Positions 8,883 through 45,280 of a stretch of 56,174 bases of DNA are shown in pieces (position 1 is the first letter of the stretch; every line of letters begins with the position of its first letter). Position numbers and translations under genes: made by a program. The notes beneath the pieces were generated by a model. The model did not search any database. It saw only the letters and a list, made by a program, of their open reading frames with translations, and was not told the DNA's origin. The DNA comes from Calothrix membranacea FACHB-236 (lineage in GTDB: Bacteria > Cyanobacteriota > Cyanobacteriia > Cyanobacteriales > Nostocaceae), in contig NZ_JACJPX010000054.1 in NCBI RefSeq assembly GCF_014696315.1, forward strand, positions 1 to 56,174. Reading direction: 5' to 3'.

Positions 8883-9752
8883 TTATTGAGCAGGGACAAA
8901 GCCATTTTTTTGTAGCAGTTTTTTTCCTGTCTCGCTATAGATAAAATCTATAAAACCCTGGGTCTGTGCTGAAGGCTTTTTACTCGATATAATGCCTATT
9001 TGACGTAGCATTTTGTATTTACCATTAATTAAGTTTTCTTGTGTAGGTGCAACTTTGTTGAGGCTGAGACGATTGACTGGTAGTTGATTGATGAGTGAAT
9101 AAGCTAAAGAAAAAGCACCGATGGAATTAGGAATATTTTGTAAGGTTTCGATTAATTCACCCTCTTTGTTCAAAATTACAGCTTTAGTTGTAGTCTTATC
9201 ATCACCTAAATAATATTTTCGCAATAATTTTTTGGCTGACTCATCTTCTGGCCGATCTAACACTACAATTTTTGCATCAGGCCCGCCCAGTTCTTGCCAA
9301 TTAGTGATTTCACCTTTGTAAATTGCTTTTAACTGCTGAGTTGAAAGATTGCTTACACCTTTAACGCTATTGTGAGTAGCAACAACTAACAAGTCTTTTG
9401 CCAATTCGCGATACTGAATTTGACCGTTATCTTCTTCAGGCTTGAGTTGTTTACTAGTACTAGCAATCTCGATAAGATTGTTTTTCAAAGCTGCGATCGC
9501 ACCTTCAGATTGGCTATTAGAAACAAACTCAATTTTAATTGCTTTATTTTGAGCTTCATAAGCTTTTGCTAACAGTGTTGAGACCGTTAACGTTGAACTA
9601 GAACTACCCATTTTGATAATTTTTTGGGCTTGGGAATCAGTCTGACCAGCGATTTGACGAGAATTTTTTGGGGTAGTTGAATTAATCGAAGTACAACTGT
9701 ACAGCCCAAAGATCATAATTCCCATGAACAGCGAGTAAGCAATTTTTTGCAT
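8883..9752 (-). CDS. PstS-like substrate-binding lipoprotein
   Basis: A 289-aa exported protein with a lipoprotein signal peptide: hydrophobic residues 4-18 and lipobox GLYSC with C20 as lipidated cysteine. The mature part has the PBP-like fold of the PstS family (GSSSSTLTVSTLLAKAYE near the start, ITNWQELGGPDAKIVVLDRP, IYSETGKKLL near the end). The ligand is probably phosphate or another oxyanion, but this is not provable here. No PstCAB permease lies near; the gene directly precedes a histidine kinase with 12 bp between them. A sensory rather than transport role is therefore the best inference. Confidence 0.85.
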   Translation of the reverse strand: MQKIAYSLFMGIMIFGLYSCTSINSTTPKNSRQIAGQTDSQAQKIIKMGSSSSTLTVSTLLAKAYEAQNKAIKIEFVSNSQSEGAIAALKNNLIEIASTSKQLKPEEDNGQIQYRELAKDLLVVATHNSVKGVSNLSTQQLKAIYKGEITNWQELGGPDAKIVVLDRPEDESAKKLLRKYYLGDDKTTTKAVILNKEGELIETLQNIPNSIGAFSLAYSLINQLPVNRLSLNKVAPTQENLINGKYKMLRQIGIISSKKPSAQTQGFIDFIYSETGKKLLQKNGFVPAQ

Positions 9753-38507: not shown

Positions 38508-40082
38508 TTAATTACCGCTACCTAGAATAAACAAACTGAGTAGGGTACCACTGTTCCAAAGGCTGTGGAGAAGCATCGGTGCGAGGAGGTTACGCGATCG
38601 CGTGTAGACTACACCTAAGACGATCCCCAAGGCTGTGAGGGGGAGAATTTCCGATAAACTCAGGTGTGCAGCCGCAAATAGCAAGCTACTGAGTAGAATT
38701 GATCCCCACACTGGAAGGTAACGAGTGAGGGAAGGTAACAAGAAGCCGCGGAAGAGAATTTCTTCAAAAATAGGAGCTGCGATCGCAGCTGTGATAAAAA
38801 ATATTCCGAGTGCTACAGAATCTTGACTTTCTAATGCTAGTTGCAGTAGAGGATTACTACCACCCTGTCCTTGCCATAGCTGTTGATTAATCAAGGACAC
38901 GACTACTACTATCGGTAAAGCCGTGCAATAGCCACCCAGCCCCCACAAGAACCAATTACTGCGAAGATTAAAGCGAAACCAGTATTCTGGTAACGGGAAA
39001 AAGCGCTTAATCGATAAATATAGTACTGCTAACGCGCCTGATGCGACGATAATATAACGCAGCAAAACCGAGAAAGCCTGAAAGCGCACATCACCACCAC
39101 TTAAGGAGATGGGGAGCAGGGATAATATTAATGGTACAAAAACTTGCCCCATCAAGAAAAAGCCGATGACAAAAACCTGAACAATTATTTCGCCACCCCA
39201 AGGAGTTGACCAAGCTACATCAGCGTTTTGAGCTAGTAAAGCGGCTTTTCCCTTCACCAAATATTGCACCAATACTGCAATTAGCAGTACTATCCCAATG
39301 ACAGCTGCCAAGGTGGGGATGATCCCAATCACCGCTAACTTCACGACAGCTTGGGTAGCAGCTTCTTGTTGTGCTGCTTTTACTGTCGCCAGTGCATCGG
39401 GACGTTGCTGAAGTTGGTATAGTTGCACCAGTGCAGTAGCACGAAACCAACCATCTAAATTCTTTTGAATCAACTGTTGAGCATTGGGGAGCAGACGGGG
39501 AGGATTACTCCACAATCCAATTAATACAGCAGAGGTTTCGGGAAATTGGGGATTAATATTTGAGCGTTGCTGGACATCATCCCAAGTCTTAATTGCTGTC
39601 TCAGTCTTTCCCTGTTGTGCTTGTAAAATTCCCAGACGTAAATCTAATTCCGCCGACAATTTTTGTAGTTGCTTAAGAGACTGCTGCAACTGTTGCTCTT
39701 GTGGATTAGCGGGATTTTCTCCGGGGCGAGTTTCTGGTAAAGGTTTAGACGGTGCAGGAGTATCAACAGATGGAGAACGCAGTTTTTCCAGTTGAGTTGT
39801 AGCTTTCTCTAAATTGGTTTGCACCGATTTCCGCGCGTCTTGATATTGCTTGGCAGCATTTTCCAGAGGTTCCTCACCCAGTATGGTTTCACGAACCACT
39901 TGTAAATTTTCTTTGCTGCTCTCTTCTGGTTGCCAAGCTTGTGCTTGCAGTGCCAAATTTGTTTGGTACAACTCCAAACGACTTTGAAACTGGGGTTCTT
40001 GCCAACTGCCAAATAAAGACAAGCCGCACAACAACAACGAAATCAGCGTCAACCCAATTAAACCCAACCGTTTAATAGTCAT
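38508..40082 (-). CDS. CPBP family intramembrane glutamic protease
   Basis: A 524-aa membrane protein. The N-terminal half after one membrane anchor (about residues 8-26) is an extracytoplasmic coiled-coil region (residues 45-235; QQQL-rich with Pro linkers). About eight hydrophobic segments follow. The CPBP (Abi) motifs are in the C-terminal part: EEILFRG, FAAAHLSLS and HSLWNSGT, supplying the catalytic Glu and His/Asn. Cyanobacterial CPBP proteins with such a soluble region are recalled as a subgroup; substrate unknown. Confidence 0.9.
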   Translation of the reverse strand: MTIKRLGLIGLTLISLLLCGLSLFGSWQEPQFQSRLELYQTNLALQAQAWQPEESSKENLQVVRETILGEEPLENAAKQYQDARKSVQTNLEKATTQLEKLRSPSVDTPAPSKPLPETRPGENPANPQEQQLQQSLKQLQKLSAELDLRLGILQAQQGKTETAIKTWDDVQQRSNINPQFPETSAVLIGLWSNPPRLLPNAQQLIQKNLDGWFRATALVQLYQLQQRPDALATVKAAQQEAATQAVVKLAVIGIIPTLAAVIGIVLLIAVLVQYLVKGKAALLAQNADVAWSTPWGGEIIVQVFVIGFFLMGQVFVPLILSLLPISLSGGDVRFQAFSVLLRYIIVASGALAVLYLSIKRFFPLPEYWFRFNLRSNWFLWGLGGYCTALPIVVVVSLINQQLWQGQGGSNPLLQLALESQDSVALGIFFITAAIAAPIFEEILFRGFLLPSLTRYLPVWGSILLSSLLFAAAHLSLSEILPLTALGIVLGVVYTRSRNLLAPMLLHSLWNSGTLLSLFILGSGN

Positions 40083-40141: not shown

Positions 40142-40194
40142 GGGGGAATGGGGAATGGGGATTGGGGATTGGGGATTGGGGATTGGGGATTGGG
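40142..40194 (+). repeat. GGGGATT array, strong G-quadruplex candidate
   Basis: Eight G-runs (GGGG, the last GGG) start at 40143, 40150, 40157, 40164, 40171, 40178, 40185 and 40192, exactly 7 bp apart with loops of three bases (AAT or ATT). It lies about 60 bp before the CPBP start, in the gap 40083-40412, which otherwise shows no gene. Confidence 0.9.
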
Positions 40195-40412
40195 TAATTG
40201 TTTTTTTCTGAGCAGTAGGGGTATTGGCGGCGTACAACCTGCTATTAATTGATACTAAGTAATTTAACCCCTTTTCCCCTTTCCCTTTGACCTTTTCCCA
40301 CCTTATCTTAAAATCCAAGTCATATTACAATTAGCACCCTGCTGTTACTGGCAGATGGACAGCAAAAAATAGATTAAATTAATTTTTATATATAGTTATT
40401 ATTACTGAGTAT

Positions 40413-40871
40413 ATGGAACCTGTGACGCTGACGGCTGTGGTAACTGCGATCGCTACTATACTTTTGACTAAGCCACTAGAGAAAGTAGGCGAAAACATTG
40501 GTGATGTGGTTTGGACGCAAAGTGGCAAGTTAATTGAAAAACTACGCAATAAGAATAAATTGCCATTGCTGACTGCGGCTGTAGAAGCCAATGAACCCCA
40601 ACGATTAGATTATGGTCAAGCAGTGCTGGAATTGAAAGCCGCAGCAGCACAAGACCCGGAAATTGCTCAAGCAGTTGTGGATGTGGAAGCAGCCACTAAA
40701 AATGATCAGTCTGAGACGGGGAAAGAAATTCAAAAACTAGTAGATGAAATTAAGTCACAGCCCTCAGTAGTCAACAACTTTGCGAAATTAGCAGAAGAAA
40801 TAAAAGCCGAAAAAGGTGCAATGGTTGCTCAACAAATCAACATTGAGCAGCAAAACAATACTTACAACTGA
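40413..40871 (+). CDS. N-terminal module of a NACHT receptor (or separate partner gene)
   Basis: A 152-codon ORF of helical character: a hydrophobic N-terminus (LTAVVTAIATILLTKPLEKVG), acidic amphipathic middle and QQINIEQQNNTYN at the end. Such Asn/Gln-rich tails with TYN occur in cyanobacterial helical proteins that precede NACHT or other effector domains (recall). The frame stops at a TGA (40869-40871) and continues, in the same frame, into the NACHT coding sequence. I read it as the N-terminal part of that receptor or its direct partner. No enzymatic motif is visible. Confidence 0.7.
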   Translation: MEPVTLTAVVTAIATILLTKPLEKVGENIGDVVWTQSGKLIEKLRNKNKLPLLTAAVEANEPQRLDYGQAVLELKAAAAQDPEIAQAVVDVEAATKNDQSETGKEIQKLVDEIKSQPSVVNNFAKLAEEIKAEKGAMVAQQINIEQQNNTYN

Positions 40872-40943
40872 CTGGAGTCGCCCGACGGGGAGAAGCGGGT
40901 AAAGTTAACTCTCGATGACTGGAGTGAAATCTGTCGTGAAATA
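40869..40943 (+). other. In-frame TGA and 24 untranslated-looking codons before the NACHT gene
   Basis: TGA followed by C (the leaky stop context TGAC) separates two ORFs that share one frame. The 24 codons after it read like protein (GEKRVKLTLDDWSEICREI) and continue smoothly into ADRRKLTTNPLT; as I recall, NACHT homologues have a similar DW...IC...L...LT.N block. No ATG or GTG starts here. Confidence 0.7.
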
Positions 40944-43900
40944 TTGGCAGACAGGCGCAAGCTGACTACAAATCCCTTGACATTAACTGAAGGCGTAACG
41001 CTGCAAGTTGATGATGTTTACGTACCACTAGGATTAGTTGAGCGCAAAAAATTATCCAAACGTCAGGATGATGTTTCTCCAGAACAGGGTTCAGAACTGT
41101 ATAAAGAAACCGAAATCACCAAAACTTTTGAGAATAAATCTTTTCTTGAAGAAGTTATCGAACAGAATAACACGCCGAAAAGTAAAGGTAAGCGAATTGC
41201 GATTATTGGTGAACCAGGAGCAGGAAAGACAACATTATTACAGCAGATTGCTTATTGGGTATCACGTGAGATTCACCAGTCGATTGTCATTTGGGTATCT
41301 TTAGCAGATTTGCGCGGGAAGGAATTAACAGCTTATCTGTTCGAGACTTGGTTGACTCAAGTTGCTGAGAAAACAGGTAAAGCTGAAGCCACTAAGCAAC
41401 TGAAGGATGATTTTGTTGCTTTGTTTAATCAAAATAATGTGTGGCTACTGTTAGATGGGTTAGATGAAATGTCCACATCTTCAAGTAATCCTCTAACAGA
41501 ATTTGCCCGACAATTCCGTGAAGCAAGGGCAATTTCTCAAGCGCGAATTGTGCTAACTTGTCGAGTTAATTTGTGGGATGGCAGCATTAATGCACTTGAT
41601 GATTTTGATACCTATCGCACTTTAGATTTTTCTTATCTCAAAGATGTAGAGGGATTTATTGATAAATGGTTCAATAAAATTGAAATTCCCGACACTGGGA
41701 AGCAGTTATGTACAGCCTTGAAAAACCCGGGGAAAGAACGAATTCAGGATTTAGTGAAAAATCCTCTGCGGTTGACGCTGTTGTGCTTGAACTGGCAATC
41801 AGGAAATGGCAAATTACCAGATACTCAAGCCGGACTCTATCAGCAATTTGTTGATGATTTCTACAAGTGGAAGAAAGACGAATTTGCTACAACATCTGAC
41901 CAGCGTCAGCAACTCAATATCAAATTGGGGGAATTAGCTAAAGCAGCAATAGACAAAGAAGCAACCCGGTTTCGCTTGCGGCAAGATTTTGTTAATCGCT
42001 TCTTAGGGGATGTTGATGATGACAATTCATTGCTGAAATTGGCACTAAATCGCGGCTGGCTGAACAGTATAGGGATAGATGAACAGAGAAAACCCGTTTA
42101 CGCTTTCTTTCATGCCTCATTTCAAGAATACTTTGCTGCTAAAGCAATTGATGATTGGCATTTCTTTCTCAATCACGTTCCCAAAAATCCTAGTAAAGGA
42201 ACTTATCGCATCTTTGAACCGCAATGGAAGCAAACAATATTACTTTGGCTAGGGCGAGAAGAAAAAAAACTTAAACAACAAAAGCAACAATTTATCGATG
42301 CTTTAGTGAAATTTAAAGACGGATATGGTGAGTGGAATATAAGAGATGTAGACAAAGGATTTTATGGAGATCGCGCTTATTTTTTAGCAGCCGCAGTAAT
42401 TGGTGAATTTAATGATTATGGACAAACAAATGAAATAGTAGATAATATTGTCAAATGGACTATTAATAATTGCCTATTGAGAAAGGACGATAGAACATTA
42501 AGACAAGAGATGCCGCGTACAAAAACAATTGATATTTTAGTAGAGCATCTATTAAATTTAGCAGATGATTTAGCGAATAAGCCAAAAGAAATACGTTTTT
42601 ATTACTTAAACAATCTTGGCGCAGCAATATTTAGTTTAGAAAAGATTGCTATAGGTAACGAAAAGGCTATTAATGCGTTAATCAAATTATTTCACTCAAA
42701 GTATGTAACTGAAGACGAATCCTGTCTCCATAAAGTAGTAATGGCATTAAATCAAATTTGTACATTTACAGAAAATAATATTAATGCTTTATTAACTTTT
42801 GGGGAGTCACAAGGTTACAATAGATATAAATTAATACAAATAATAGAAGAGTTAAGAATAAAAAGTAGAGAAGATAAACAAATCATTGGTATCTTGATAA
42901 ATATGATTAAACCAGAAGATATGTATTACTACAATCACGGACAAACAGAATACAGATTAAGAGAAGTACAAAATAACCCAGTAATGAATGCCCTAGTACA
43001 ATTATTGAAGTTAAAATGTGTGTCTGATAAAACCATTGCGGAAGCAGCATCTAAATTAGTAAAAAATGAGCCAAATAATCAAATAGGAATTGATGCCTTA
43101 GTAGAATTACTAGAATTAGCTGACGTAGATACGGACATCCATAGGTTAGCGGCATATAGTTTACGGACAATTGAGTTAGGTAATCAAAAAGCCATTGATG
43201 CTTTAGTAAGACGGCTACAGTTAATGGATGCTGATGAAGATACTCTTTGTGAAGTAGTAAATAGCTTAGGCTACATAGGTAAAGGAAATAAAAAAGCCAT
43301 TGATGACCTAGCGAAATTGTTAGATTTAAAAAATCTAGATGACTATACTTGTCGCTTAGTAGCGGACAGCTTAGGAAAAATTGACCCAGGTAATCAAAAA
43401 GCAATTGATGCATTAGCAAATTTGCTAGCTTCAGAAGATATGGATGAAAATATGCTTAGGTTAGTGGCAGAAAACTTAGGCAAGATTGACCCAGGAAATG
43501 AAAAAGCGTTAGAGACTTTAATAAAACTACTTGACTCAACAGATGAAAATAACGGTATCTATTGGTTAGTGCCAGACAGCTTGAAACAAATCTTGCAAAA
43601 AAATCAGCTAAAAAGTGTTGTCACCAAGTTAACAAGCAACTTAAATAGTTCGCAATTATCGAATTATATTTATCAAGATGTCCTCAAGCATTGCGCCCAA
43701 AATATGAATTACCCAGATTTCTACAATGCATGGAATTGGAATCAGGGTAAGGATAAAGAAGTCAGCGTTAACTCTCTAAATTCAATCCAATGCTTGCAAT
43801 CTGCAATTAACGATGACAGCCAACTCAGCCAAAAAATTCACTTCATCTGTATCGACACCAGTAAATTCATCGTCCCAGATAACCCAGCTAGCAAAATTTA

Positions 43901-44201
43901 CACTACAATCGTCAAAGCTGGCTGTCCTAAATGCGAAGATGGTACGCCGAAAACAATGGCGGAACTGCAAACCTATTGGGAATTGCTAGAAACTGATAAG
44001 CGCGTGGTTTTAGTATTTCACCCAAGCGCAACTAATACTACAGATGAGGTGAAATACAGCGATCGCTTTCTCAGTGACATTAGCAAGTTTGAGGGAGCGA
44101 TTTGTTTTATGAGCAACCCCATACCAAATCACAACACTCTCAAATTTTTTCCACCCAGTCAGCCGATTGACGTAATTGTAGAATGGTTGCGGCGTAGTTG
44201 A
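40944..44201 (+). CDS. NACHT-domain STAND NTPase with HEAT-like repeats (NLR-like)
   Basis: 1085 aa from a TTG, which is a poor start choice; coding similarity reaches upstream. After the block DVYVPLGLVERKK come the NACHT ATPase (Walker A GEPGAGKTT at residues 89-97, Walker B LLLDGLDEMS at about 167-176, and the sensor VLTCRVN near 210), a winged-helix/helical part with FFHASFQEYFAA at about 390, and HEAT-like helical repeats at about 570-885. The repeats between 712 and 885 have a 35-residue period (NxKAIDALxxLL). A C-terminal alpha/beta domain (about 920-1085) contains CPKCEDGTPKT. Bacterial NACHT proteins of this type act in antiphage immunity (family knowledge). The first ATG in the frame lies after Walker B. 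Confidence 0.88.
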   Translation: MADRRKLTTNPLTLTEGVTLQVDDVYVPLGLVERKKLSKRQDDVSPEQGSELYKETEITKTFENKSFLEEVIEQNNTPKSKGKRIAIIGEPGAGKTTLLQQIAYWVSREIHQSIVIWVSLADLRGKELTAYLFETWLTQVAEKTGKAEATKQLKDDFVALFNQNNVWLLLDGLDEMSTSSSNPLTEFARQFREARAISQARIVLTCRVNLWDGSINALDDFDTYRTLDFSYLKDVEGFIDKWFNKIEIPDTGKQLCTALKNPGKERIQDLVKNPLRLTLLCLNWQSGNGKLPDTQAGLYQQFVDDFYKWKKDEFATTSDQRQQLNIKLGELAKAAIDKEATRFRLRQDFVNRFLGDVDDDNSLLKLALNRGWLNSIGIDEQRKPVYAFFHASFQEYFAAKAIDDWHFFLNHVPKNPSKGTYRIFEPQWKQTILLWLGREEKKLKQQKQQFIDALVKFKDGYGEWNIRDVDKGFYGDRAYFLAAAVIGEFNDYGQTNEIVDNIVKWTINNCLLRKDDRTLRQEMPRTKTIDILVEHLLNLADDLANKPKEIRFYYLNNLGAAIFSLEKIAIGNEKAINALIKLFHSKYVTEDESCLHKVVMALNQICTFTENNINALLTFGESQGYNRYKLIQIIEELRIKSREDKQIIGILINMIKPEDMYYYNHGQTEYRLREVQNNPVMNALVQLLKLKCVSDKTIAEAASKLVKNEPNNQIGIDALVELLELADVDTDIHRLAAYSLRTIELGNQKAIDALVRRLQLMDADEDTLCEVVNSLGYIGKGNKKAIDDLAKLLDLKNLDDYTCRLVADSLGKIDPGNQKAIDALANLLASEDMDENMLRLVAENLGKIDPGNEKALETLIKLLDSTDENNGIYWLVPDSLKQILQKNQLKSVVTKLTSNLNSSQLSNYIYQDVLKHCAQNMNYPDFYNAWNWNQGKDKEVSVNSLNSIQCLQSAINDDSQLSQKIHFICIDTSKFIVPDNPASKIYTTIVKAGCPKCEDGTPKTMAELQTYWELLETDKRVVLVFHPSATNTTDEVKYSDRFLSDISKFEGAICFMSNPIPNHNTLKFFPPSQPIDVIVEWLRRS

Positions 44202-44220
44202 TTATATTTATCTATTGAGA

Positions 44221-44375
44221 ACAACAGCTTGTCCGTTTGTTACCAACACGAATTGTTTCGTGACTCTTATCCTTTGGTAACGACAACTTATGCGATGGTT
44301 ACCAACACAACTTGTTTCGTGACCACAGCTTTTCTATTTGTGGCAAACGCTTATGTTGTCGTCACCACAGTTTAA
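44221..44375. repeat. Degenerate 59-bp tandem repeats behind the NACHT gene
   Basis: GTTACCAACACGAATTGTTTCGTGAC (26 bp) at 44239-44264 recurs at 44298-44323 with two differences, 59 bp away; a third more degenerate unit follows to about 44375. The rest of 44202-44537 has no gene. Confidence 0.75.
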
Positions 44376-44537: not shown

Positions 44538-44873
44538 CTAAGAAATCGCAAATTCTGTGTGTTTTCGCTGTTCCAAGGGTCTAAAAGCCAGAACAATCTG
44601 CTTTTTGGGAATTCCCGCAGCTACCAGATCATTAGCGATACCTTCTTCTGTACCATCGTGTTGAATCCAAAGTTTATGATCAATCACATCAATGTGCAGC
44701 AAAGTGCCATAGATGCGATAACCGTTTTCCCAGCCTGTTTCGACTAGCAAATAGCGATCGCGTTCTCTATCTAACACTAACTCAACTTTTACCCCATCAT
44801 CACTCTGGAGAAAGTCGGTGTAGTCTTGGAATACTTTTTCAATTATCTGACGATATTGGGTTAGTGAATCCAT
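44538..44873 (-). CDS. xisI: XisI-like fdxN-element excision controlling factor
   Basis: A 111-aa protein matching the XisI family: YRQIIEKVFQDYTDF at the start, DRERDRYLLVETGWENGYRIYG and LLHIDVIDHKLWIQHDGTE in the middle, and AFRPLEQRKHTEFAIS at the end. XisI was described as needed with XisF and XisH for excision of the fdxN element in Anabaena, but many such pairs occur without that element. Its start overlaps the end of xisH by 13 bp. Confidence 0.93.
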   Translation of the reverse strand: MDSLTQYRQIIEKVFQDYTDFLQSDDGVKVELVLDRERDRYLLVETGWENGYRIYGTLLHIDVIDHKLWIQHDGTEEGIANDLVAAGIPKKQIVLAFRPLEQRKHTEFAIS

Positions 44874-45280
44874 CGGCTAATTGCCTCCTGACTCGGATCA
44901 AAGGTTACTAAACGAATGATGCCATCTTCAATCAAGGTTTGTCCGGCTTCTTCTTCAAAGACAGTTTTGCAAGTTGCTTCAGTAACAGCAAGATACAGGA
45001 TATGCTCTGGATAGTACCGCTTCAATAATTGTGCGTACAAAACAAATTGACCTAACGCCTCTTCAAGATCCTTCATATCCGAAGGACGGGTAAAGCTTTT
45101 AACTTCGACAGCAATCTTGTGGGTGCCACGTTCAGCTGCCAGCAATCGTTCTGCCCCCAAATCGACAAATAGATTTTTACCGCGCGCCAGACGAATTCGT
45201 AGGGGATCATGAGTGATGATCCAGCCATCTTTAATCAAGGCATTTTTAACGTTATCGTGATAAAGGTCTCTCGCAGGCAT
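44861..45280 (-). CDS. xisH: XisH-like fdxN-element excision controlling factor
   Basis: A 139-aa protein of the XisH family. FVDLGAERLLAAE followed by KIAVEVKSF has the Asp and Glu-x-Lys of the PD-(D/E)XK nuclease-like fold. The sequence opens with ARDLYHDNVKNALIKDGW. It overlaps xisI, so they are translated together. No site-specific recombinase or fdxN gene is in the window, so an excision role is unproven here. It neighbours the NACHT gene. Confidence 0.93.
   Translation of the reverse strand: MPARDLYHDNVKNALIKDGWIITHDPLRIRLARGKNLFVDLGAERLLAAERGTHKIAVEVKSFTRPSDMKDLEEALGQFVLYAQLLKRYYPEHILYLAVTEATCKTVFEEEAGQTLIEDGIIRLVTFDPSQEAISRWIH

Follow-up and report, generated by a model that had tools for sequence, protein, structure and literature searches.

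The known cases of programmed stop-codon readthrough with a structured 3' signal come mainly from viruses and eukaryotes, and the reviews consulted give no such family in bacterial chromosomes. In the viral type II signals, as summarised in PMC3542737, UGA-CGG or UGA-CUA is often followed by a 3' structure starting about 8 nucleotides (nt) from the stop, with alphavirus and coltivirus as examples; gammaretroviruses use UAG with an 8-nt spacer and a pseudoknot, and UGAC is called leaky in the same source. A second set of related systems is formed by the bacterial amyloid signalosomes of filamentous cyanobacteria, in which the gene of a BELL-BASS effector, a small helical protein ending in an amyloid-like motif, lies next to the gene of a BASS-bearing NOD-like receptor (NLR), and for which TIR is named as an occasional effector (PMC7889193, PMC9815663). 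Here we describe a locus on a 56,174-nt window, positions 1 to 56,174 of contig NZ_JACJPX010000054.1 (C115) of Calothrix membranacea FACHB-236, whose genome comprises 8.8 Mb in 164 contigs. In this locus a small effector frame and a NACHT receptor frame are joined across one in-frame UGA, and we consider it very likely that they form one gene with two products, in which readthrough of the UGA is programmed by a short cassette behind the stop and would give free effector and a scarce effector-NLR fusion.

The cassette resembles the viral signals described in PMC3542737 in its UGA-CUA context (in most members), its 8-nt spacer, its 3' RNA structure and its in-frame C-terminal extension, and differs from them in being located in bacterial chromosomal genes, in relying on bacterial ribosomes and in its short stem of 5 base pairs (bp). 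Whereas the viral signal joins capsid to polymerase, the cassette would join effector to NLR. The locus shares with the amyloid signalosomes the small helical effector, a putative amyloid-like C-terminal motif and the neighbouring NLR; the known BELL-BASS pairs, as far as the sources above describe them, are adjacent or overlapping genes with a copy of the motif on each side, in contrast to the one copy and one frame across the UGA found here. The receptor is also like the antiphage proteins of the bNACHT/EruA type (NCBIfam NF058535) in having NACHT, NCC-H and NCAB1 domains; its score with the EruA model is 44.4 bits, where the cut-off is 1000, and no UGA cassette in known proteins of this type was found in the literature. 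The parts, namely programmed readthrough, NLR receptors and BELL-BASS pairs, are known, and the combination is new as far as our literature search showed, which found no structured UGA cassette that is conserved in genes on the chromosomes of a bacterial class and joins interchangeable effectors and NLRs. A paper on beta-propeller proteins illustrates how the signal could escape notice, since it reads the in-frame stops of related cyanobacterial proteins as decay (PMC9218822).

The open reading frame (ORF) of the 152-amino-acid (aa) effector starts with ATG and occupies positions 40413-40871 on the plus strand. A preliminary description of this DNA had pointed out that a single TGA (40869-40871), followed by C, separates it from a NACHT ORF in the same frame, and that the only start-like codons (ATG, GTG or TTG) between this TGA and the Walker A motif are the TTGs at 40944 (codon 25) and 40977 (codon 36); all of this was borne out. 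It had also described 24 codons after the TGA running straight into an LTTNPLT block, of which the open frame stands and the direct junction does not, LTTNPLT starting at codon 31 (40962). Behind the TGA 1109 codons are open from 40872 up to a stop ending at 44201, and the encoded protein is an NLR of the NACHT type, within the signal transduction ATPases with numerous domains (STAND), with PF05729, PF13646, PF22730 and PF22724 all above the Pfam cut-offs. An open frame past a stop is not decisive alone, because 2 of the 32 stop-to-stop ORFs of at least 150 codons in the window have at least 100 open in-frame codons beyond their stop; what decides is that other genomes have kept the stop together with its context, the frame and the hairpin. 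The second such pair in the window is on the minus strand, where a TAA at 8885 lies between two stop-to-stop ORFs in the same frame, 290 and 665 codons long.

Homologues were collected from two sides (loci and contigs are cited below by labels beginning with L and C). A search with the effector alone, covering 217 genomes of the family and 388 genomes sampled from the order, matched the effector family in 149 and 93 of them, respectively, and the best 150 loci of the match lists were read, giving 148 unique rows. The long in-frame extension is the usual form: at least 50 codons are open past the stop in 125 of the 148 loci, and at least 300 codons in 111. Within the 125 extended loci the stop is TGA in 124, TGAC is present in 118, CG at +10/+11 (T of UGA = 1) in 121, and all three together in 116. 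The other 23 rows end in TAA (10), TGA (9) or TAG (4) and carry the cassette in two cases, while as a background the 357 ORFs of at least 250 codons in the same DNA end in TAA (181), TGA (98) or TAG (78), with TGAC in eight. When the NACHT part served as the query, 30 loci were found, most of them from Nostoc, and in 24 of them effector, TGA at the same place and receptor follow each other with nothing else between; in L026 the receptor is fused without a stop to a different N-terminal domain. The phenomenon is larger in extent than the preliminary description supposed. A receptor that starts near 40944 beside an effector encoded separately everywhere is not the pattern found, the separate-gene form being a minority.

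Directly behind the UGA the conserved block consists of the spacer and a hairpin, S1, whose first 5-base strand lies at +12 to +16 and whose loop measures 8 or 11 nt. The third codon past the UGA is TCG in 103, CCG in 18 and ACG in one of 122 loci, all of them selected for the CG, and further downstream TCG makes up 7.8% of the Ser codons and CCG 11.4% of the Pro codons; a codon so constant here and so rare later indicates a constraint that acts on nucleotides. Over codons 1-12 the proportions of synonymous (pS) and nonsynonymous (pN) differences are 0.11 and 0.14, in keeping with such a constraint. Pairing of S1 was assessed in two ways. In a swap test on 137 sequences (139 non-redundant ones minus L115 and L170; 2000 rounds) the two strands of the same locus paired perfectly in 118, compared with a mean of 56.9 (standard deviation (sd) 4.1) and a maximum of 71 when partners were exchanged. 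In the covariation alignment, A2, of 131 rows (8 of the 139 were dropped as irregular or non-members), 97.2% of the S1 cells are paired, cells with a double change number 90 against 31.6 (sd 4.4) after shuffling, and at most 51.3% remain paired when the partner strand is shifted by one, two or three columns. The stem types include GCCCG:CGGGU, GUCCG:CGGAC, GUCUC:GGGAC, GCCUG:CAGGU, GCCGG:CCGGU and GUCGG:CCGAC, and G-U pairs account for 110 of about 634 paired cells, as expected for an RNA and not for a DNA palindrome. The strong covariation of S1 points to the 3' RNA structure that programmed readthrough calls for, with a putative stimulatory role. Recoding at the UGA, raised as one option by the preliminary description, is strongly supported by this comparison, in which the TGA with the C after it, the frame and the downstream hairpin are all conserved.

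The cassette is modular and joins several types of effector to several types of NLR in many cyanobacteria. A model of the cassette built from sequence only found matches in 121 of 208 genomes of the family and, in a sample of 388 genomes from the class, in 33. Sixty matches outside the loci already read were fetched, and each shows an ORF, the UGA and an in-frame extension of at least 100 codons; of the 30 class-level loci 22 were read, eight from the family itself being omitted and two of the 22 being places already known, and TGA is present in all 22 and an extension of at least 100 codons in 21. The protein upstream belongs to the BELL-like effector family by profile in 58 of the 60 matches (weakest E 0.0027). 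By eye, L263 also resembles this family, and L253, for which no Pfam family was found, resembles an alpha/beta-hydrolase. Other effectors before the UGA, according to Pfam, are TIR in L277 (with EAD9) and L283 and a DUF676 alpha/beta-hydrolase in L278. The receptors that follow it carry NACHT in the window, L155, L278 and L283, NB-ARC with TPR in L079, L154, L253 and L281, and NB-ARC in L222. In four loci (L168:630-1001, L169:633-1010, L188:639-1622 and L200:639-1295) the cassette joins the effector to extensions of 124-328 codons that look unlike NLRs; those of L188 and L200 look membrane-spanning by eye.

No Pfam family was found above cut-off in the 152-aa effector of the window. Its AlphaFold model is helical throughout to about residue 132, with a mean predicted local distance difference test (pLDDT) score of 70.8, and the tail that follows (residues 133-152) stays below 50 with no confident fold. 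Over 182 loci the last 22 residues contain 36% N+Q+G against 19% in the body of the protein, and 14% charged residues against 26%. The position of the tail is that of the amyloid motif in the BELL-BASS effectors described in PMC7889193. The features of the locus are collected in Table 1.

Table 1. Features of the effector-NACHT locus in the window, listed by position
Feature	Position	Strand	Basis or remark
All-helical effector domain of 152 aa (BELL-like by description), expected from normal termination	40413..40868	+	AlphaFold, homologues
C-terminal tail of about 20 aa, ...AQQINIEQQNNTYN; composition and position resemble those of an amyloid signalling motif	40809..40868	+	would sit between effector and NLR in the fusion
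In-frame UGA, candidate recoding site, followed by C	40869..40871	+	conserved across loci
Putative read-through extension, linker and NACHT receptor	40872..44201	+	open frame, 1109 codons and stop; Pfam NACHT, HEAT_2, NCC-H, NCAB1
Spacer of 8 nt between UGA and hairpin	40872..40879	+	CTGGAGTC in the window; consensus CTACAGTC
Hairpin S1, 5' strand GCCCG	40880..40884	+	pairs with 40896-40900; covariation (131 sequences), swap test (137)
Possible pseudoknot S2, 5' side in loop, GGGA	40888..40891	+	suggestive only
Hairpin S1, 3' strand CGGGT	40896..40900	+	covariation and swap test
Possible pseudoknot S2, 3' side, TCTC	40910..40913	+	suggestive only
NACHT NTPase domain, Walker A GEPGAGKT at 41208-41231	41193..41636	+	PF05729, E 1.8e-11, extension residues 108-255
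HEAT repeats, best stretch	43221..43439	+	PF13646, E 4.3e-16, residues 784-856
NCAB1, NACHT C-terminal alpha/beta domain, with NCC-H just before	43788..44195	+	PF22724, E 1.4e-38, residues 973-1108

Several observations weigh against programmed readthrough or against parts of the signal proposed for it. Of the five measures that count pairs in S1, two do not rise above the shuffles (3 pairs with a change in both strands, shuffled 3.0; 10 further pair types, shuffled 9.0), the shuffles ignore the relatedness of the sequences, and the covariation alignment leaves out the eight irregular sequences of 139, while the swap test leaves out only two. Folds of an 82-nt stretch from eight sequences are not unusually stable (z from -2.10 to +0.59), and S1 is part of the minimum-energy fold in 101 of 137 segments (+4 to +34) but not in that of the window itself. 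Pairing of the loop with a downstream UCCC, which would make an H-type pseudoknot (S2), is only suggestive: 89.4% of its cells are paired and double-change cells number 11 against 3.9 after shuffling, but versions slid by one column give 11 and 12, so that its covariation is no better than theirs. The evidence from pN/pS that the linker is translated is weak: the ratio is 1.28 over codons 1-12 after the UGA and 0.42 over codons 13-22, and the two wrong frames give 0.53 and 0.99. The short cassette extensions of L168 and L188 match no Pfam family. In E. coli, moreover, it is G and not C after the stop that favours readthrough, according to PMC11126739. Finally, the tails of the TIR members are not amyloid-like by eye, which shows the cassette to be more general than amyloid signalling.

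Genuine two-gene forms also occur. In L105, L116, L124 and L139 the effector stops at TGA or TAA, an ATG of the receptor follows 20 or 21 nt later, and a similar motif (of the type MPEDSGKLADKIGAYAGYGGTVNINNL) is present a second time, in the receptor itself. In the Calothrix genome itself, on the minus strand of contig C93 (56000-59258; L156), a 144-aa effector gene adjoins an 823-codon ORF in which effector, tail and NACHT are continuous; the cassette is still recognisable at the junction, with TCA instead of TGA and the first hairpin strand decayed. Such a sense version is as expected if a duplicated gene divided the two read-through products between two genes, although it is one case. Related motifs are seen by eye on both sides in L105, L116 and C93. 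The same genome also contains a paralogue of the NACHT part with 49% identity (contig C84:63338-64390; L341), which has another N-terminal domain and forms one 1039-codon ORF without a stop.

Readthrough was weighed against five other explanations. The preliminary description had allowed for a recent nonsense mutation or a sequencing error, and broken copies do exist elsewhere (L050 with an internal TAA, L153 with a second stop as codon 2), as a pseudogene would have it; in the window this explanation is rejected, the UGA being kept, with context, frame and hairpin, in more than 100 loci, and the homologue alignment refutes a fresh mutation or error. Its further suggestion was re-initiation at a TTG; more generally, termination at the UGA followed by a restart at a nearby TTG, GTG or ATG, perhaps helped by the hairpin, would yield two proteins whose common frame is historical. 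The two TTGs of the window, an ATG or GTG 23-25 codons downstream in some loci and the genuine two-gene forms with ATG speak for such a restart. We nevertheless regard it as unlikely, since no start is conserved: TTG stands at the 40944 position in 18 of 58 aligned loci of the LTTNPLT type, with a neighbouring codon start-like in another 18, and a Shine-Dalgarno-like core precedes none of 63 candidate starts. Among the 174 loci with a Walker A motif, 115 have no ATG before it, 47 neither ATG nor GTG, and 12 none of ATG, GTG and TTG. The cassette loci also keep the frame, in contrast to the true two-gene forms with their ATG 20 or 21 nt away and their occasional TAA, and a restart leaves the UGA in 124 of 125 extended loci without reason.

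In the bacterial selenocysteine insertion sequence (SECIS), too, a conserved hairpin follows immediately on a UGA, and a dedicated redefinition of the codon, either as selenocysteine or by a UGA-suppressor tRNA, would give a single full-length protein. This is most improbable. A selenoprotein gene is disfavoured by selA, found in none of 208 family genomes with positive controls including E. coli detected, and by selB, for which the Calothrix genome has no match above cut-off. In the same genome the anticodon UCA does not occur in any of the 46 tRNAs named by ARAGORN among 47 Rfam tRNA hits (L339 was not called), and the tRNA-Trp has the anticodon CCA. It is very unlikely, too, that ribosomes pass the same site by in-frame bypass (stop hopping) or another recoding event, which would leave the fusion a few residues shorter. 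Hopping and readthrough look alike in comparative sequence, and hopping could mimic readthrough, with no natural case known according to PMC5009743; UGAC with a 3' structure at 8 nt fits the known readthrough signals better. If the conserved block were a place in the DNA where modules recombine or are swapped, and the UGA merely the normal stop of the effector, its location exactly where shuffled effector and receptor modules meet would be accounted for. Such a DNA site is scarcely conceivable all the same, as it leaves unexplained the exclusive use of UGA, the frame and the G-U pairs in a covarying stem, and single nucleotides of S1 vary as compensated pairs.

If readthrough is programmed as proposed, most ribosomes would stop at the UGA and release the 152-aa helical effector with its N/Q/G-rich tail, which resembles an amyloid motif. 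A minority would decode the UGA, probably as Trp by a near-cognate tRNA; in E. coli, UGA is described as the leakiest stop and as mostly miscoded by Trp (PMC11126739). Their product would be a fusion of 1262 residues composed of effector, tail, linker and a NACHT-HEAT-NCAB1 receptor. The signal would consist of the UGA-C context, the 8-nt spacer, the 5-bp hairpin with its loop of 8 or 11 nt and possibly the H-type pseudoknot. From these sequences we infer the readthrough itself, its level, the inserted amino acid and a cell-death or defence outcome, together with an amyloid-seeding role of the tail. The purpose may be a scarce receptor and an abundant effector at a set ratio and with identical motifs. 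Once activated and oligomerised, the receptor would gather its tails into a template that recruits and triggers free effectors, as has been proposed for NWD2/HET-S. HET-S and NWD2 are separate genes, and unlike them the fusion would carry the effector domain as well. In its proposed action, with a motif at the N-terminus of the NLR templating an abundant effector, the system would be like the fungal HET-S/NWD2 pair (PMC4344463).

More tentatively, and with rather less than even confidence, we suggest that the cassette is a class-wide recoding element that serves as the standard setting of the effector:receptor ratio in one group of immune systems, where any effector placed upstream becomes the N-terminus of the receptor. 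Because readthrough of UGA depends on release factor 2, on charged tRNA and on the speed of translation, the cassette may be a sensor as well: if termination were weakened by infection or stress, more receptor would be made and the system would be armed. If programmed readthrough is true, databases wrongly show many NLR genes of cyanobacteria as gene pairs or with false starts, and the real N-terminus of the receptor is the effector. It would be a simple answer to the need for a fixed effector:receptor ratio with matching motifs, and the cassette, being compact and having a hundred natural variants, would lend itself to studying how bacterial ribosomes are made to pass a stop codon.

The surroundings of the gene were also reviewed. 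The NACHT gene is immediately followed by a XisI/XisH pair (PF08869, PF08814) on the minus strand (44538-44873 and 44861-45280). Divergent from the effector gene, also on the minus strand, is a gene (38508-40082) whose product, a membrane protein of 524 aa, contains an Rce1-like CAAX protease domain (PF02517). Short repeats seen by eye flank the gene on both sides, with GGGGATT units upstream (40150-40195) and units of the TTGTTTCGTGA type downstream (44220-44370).

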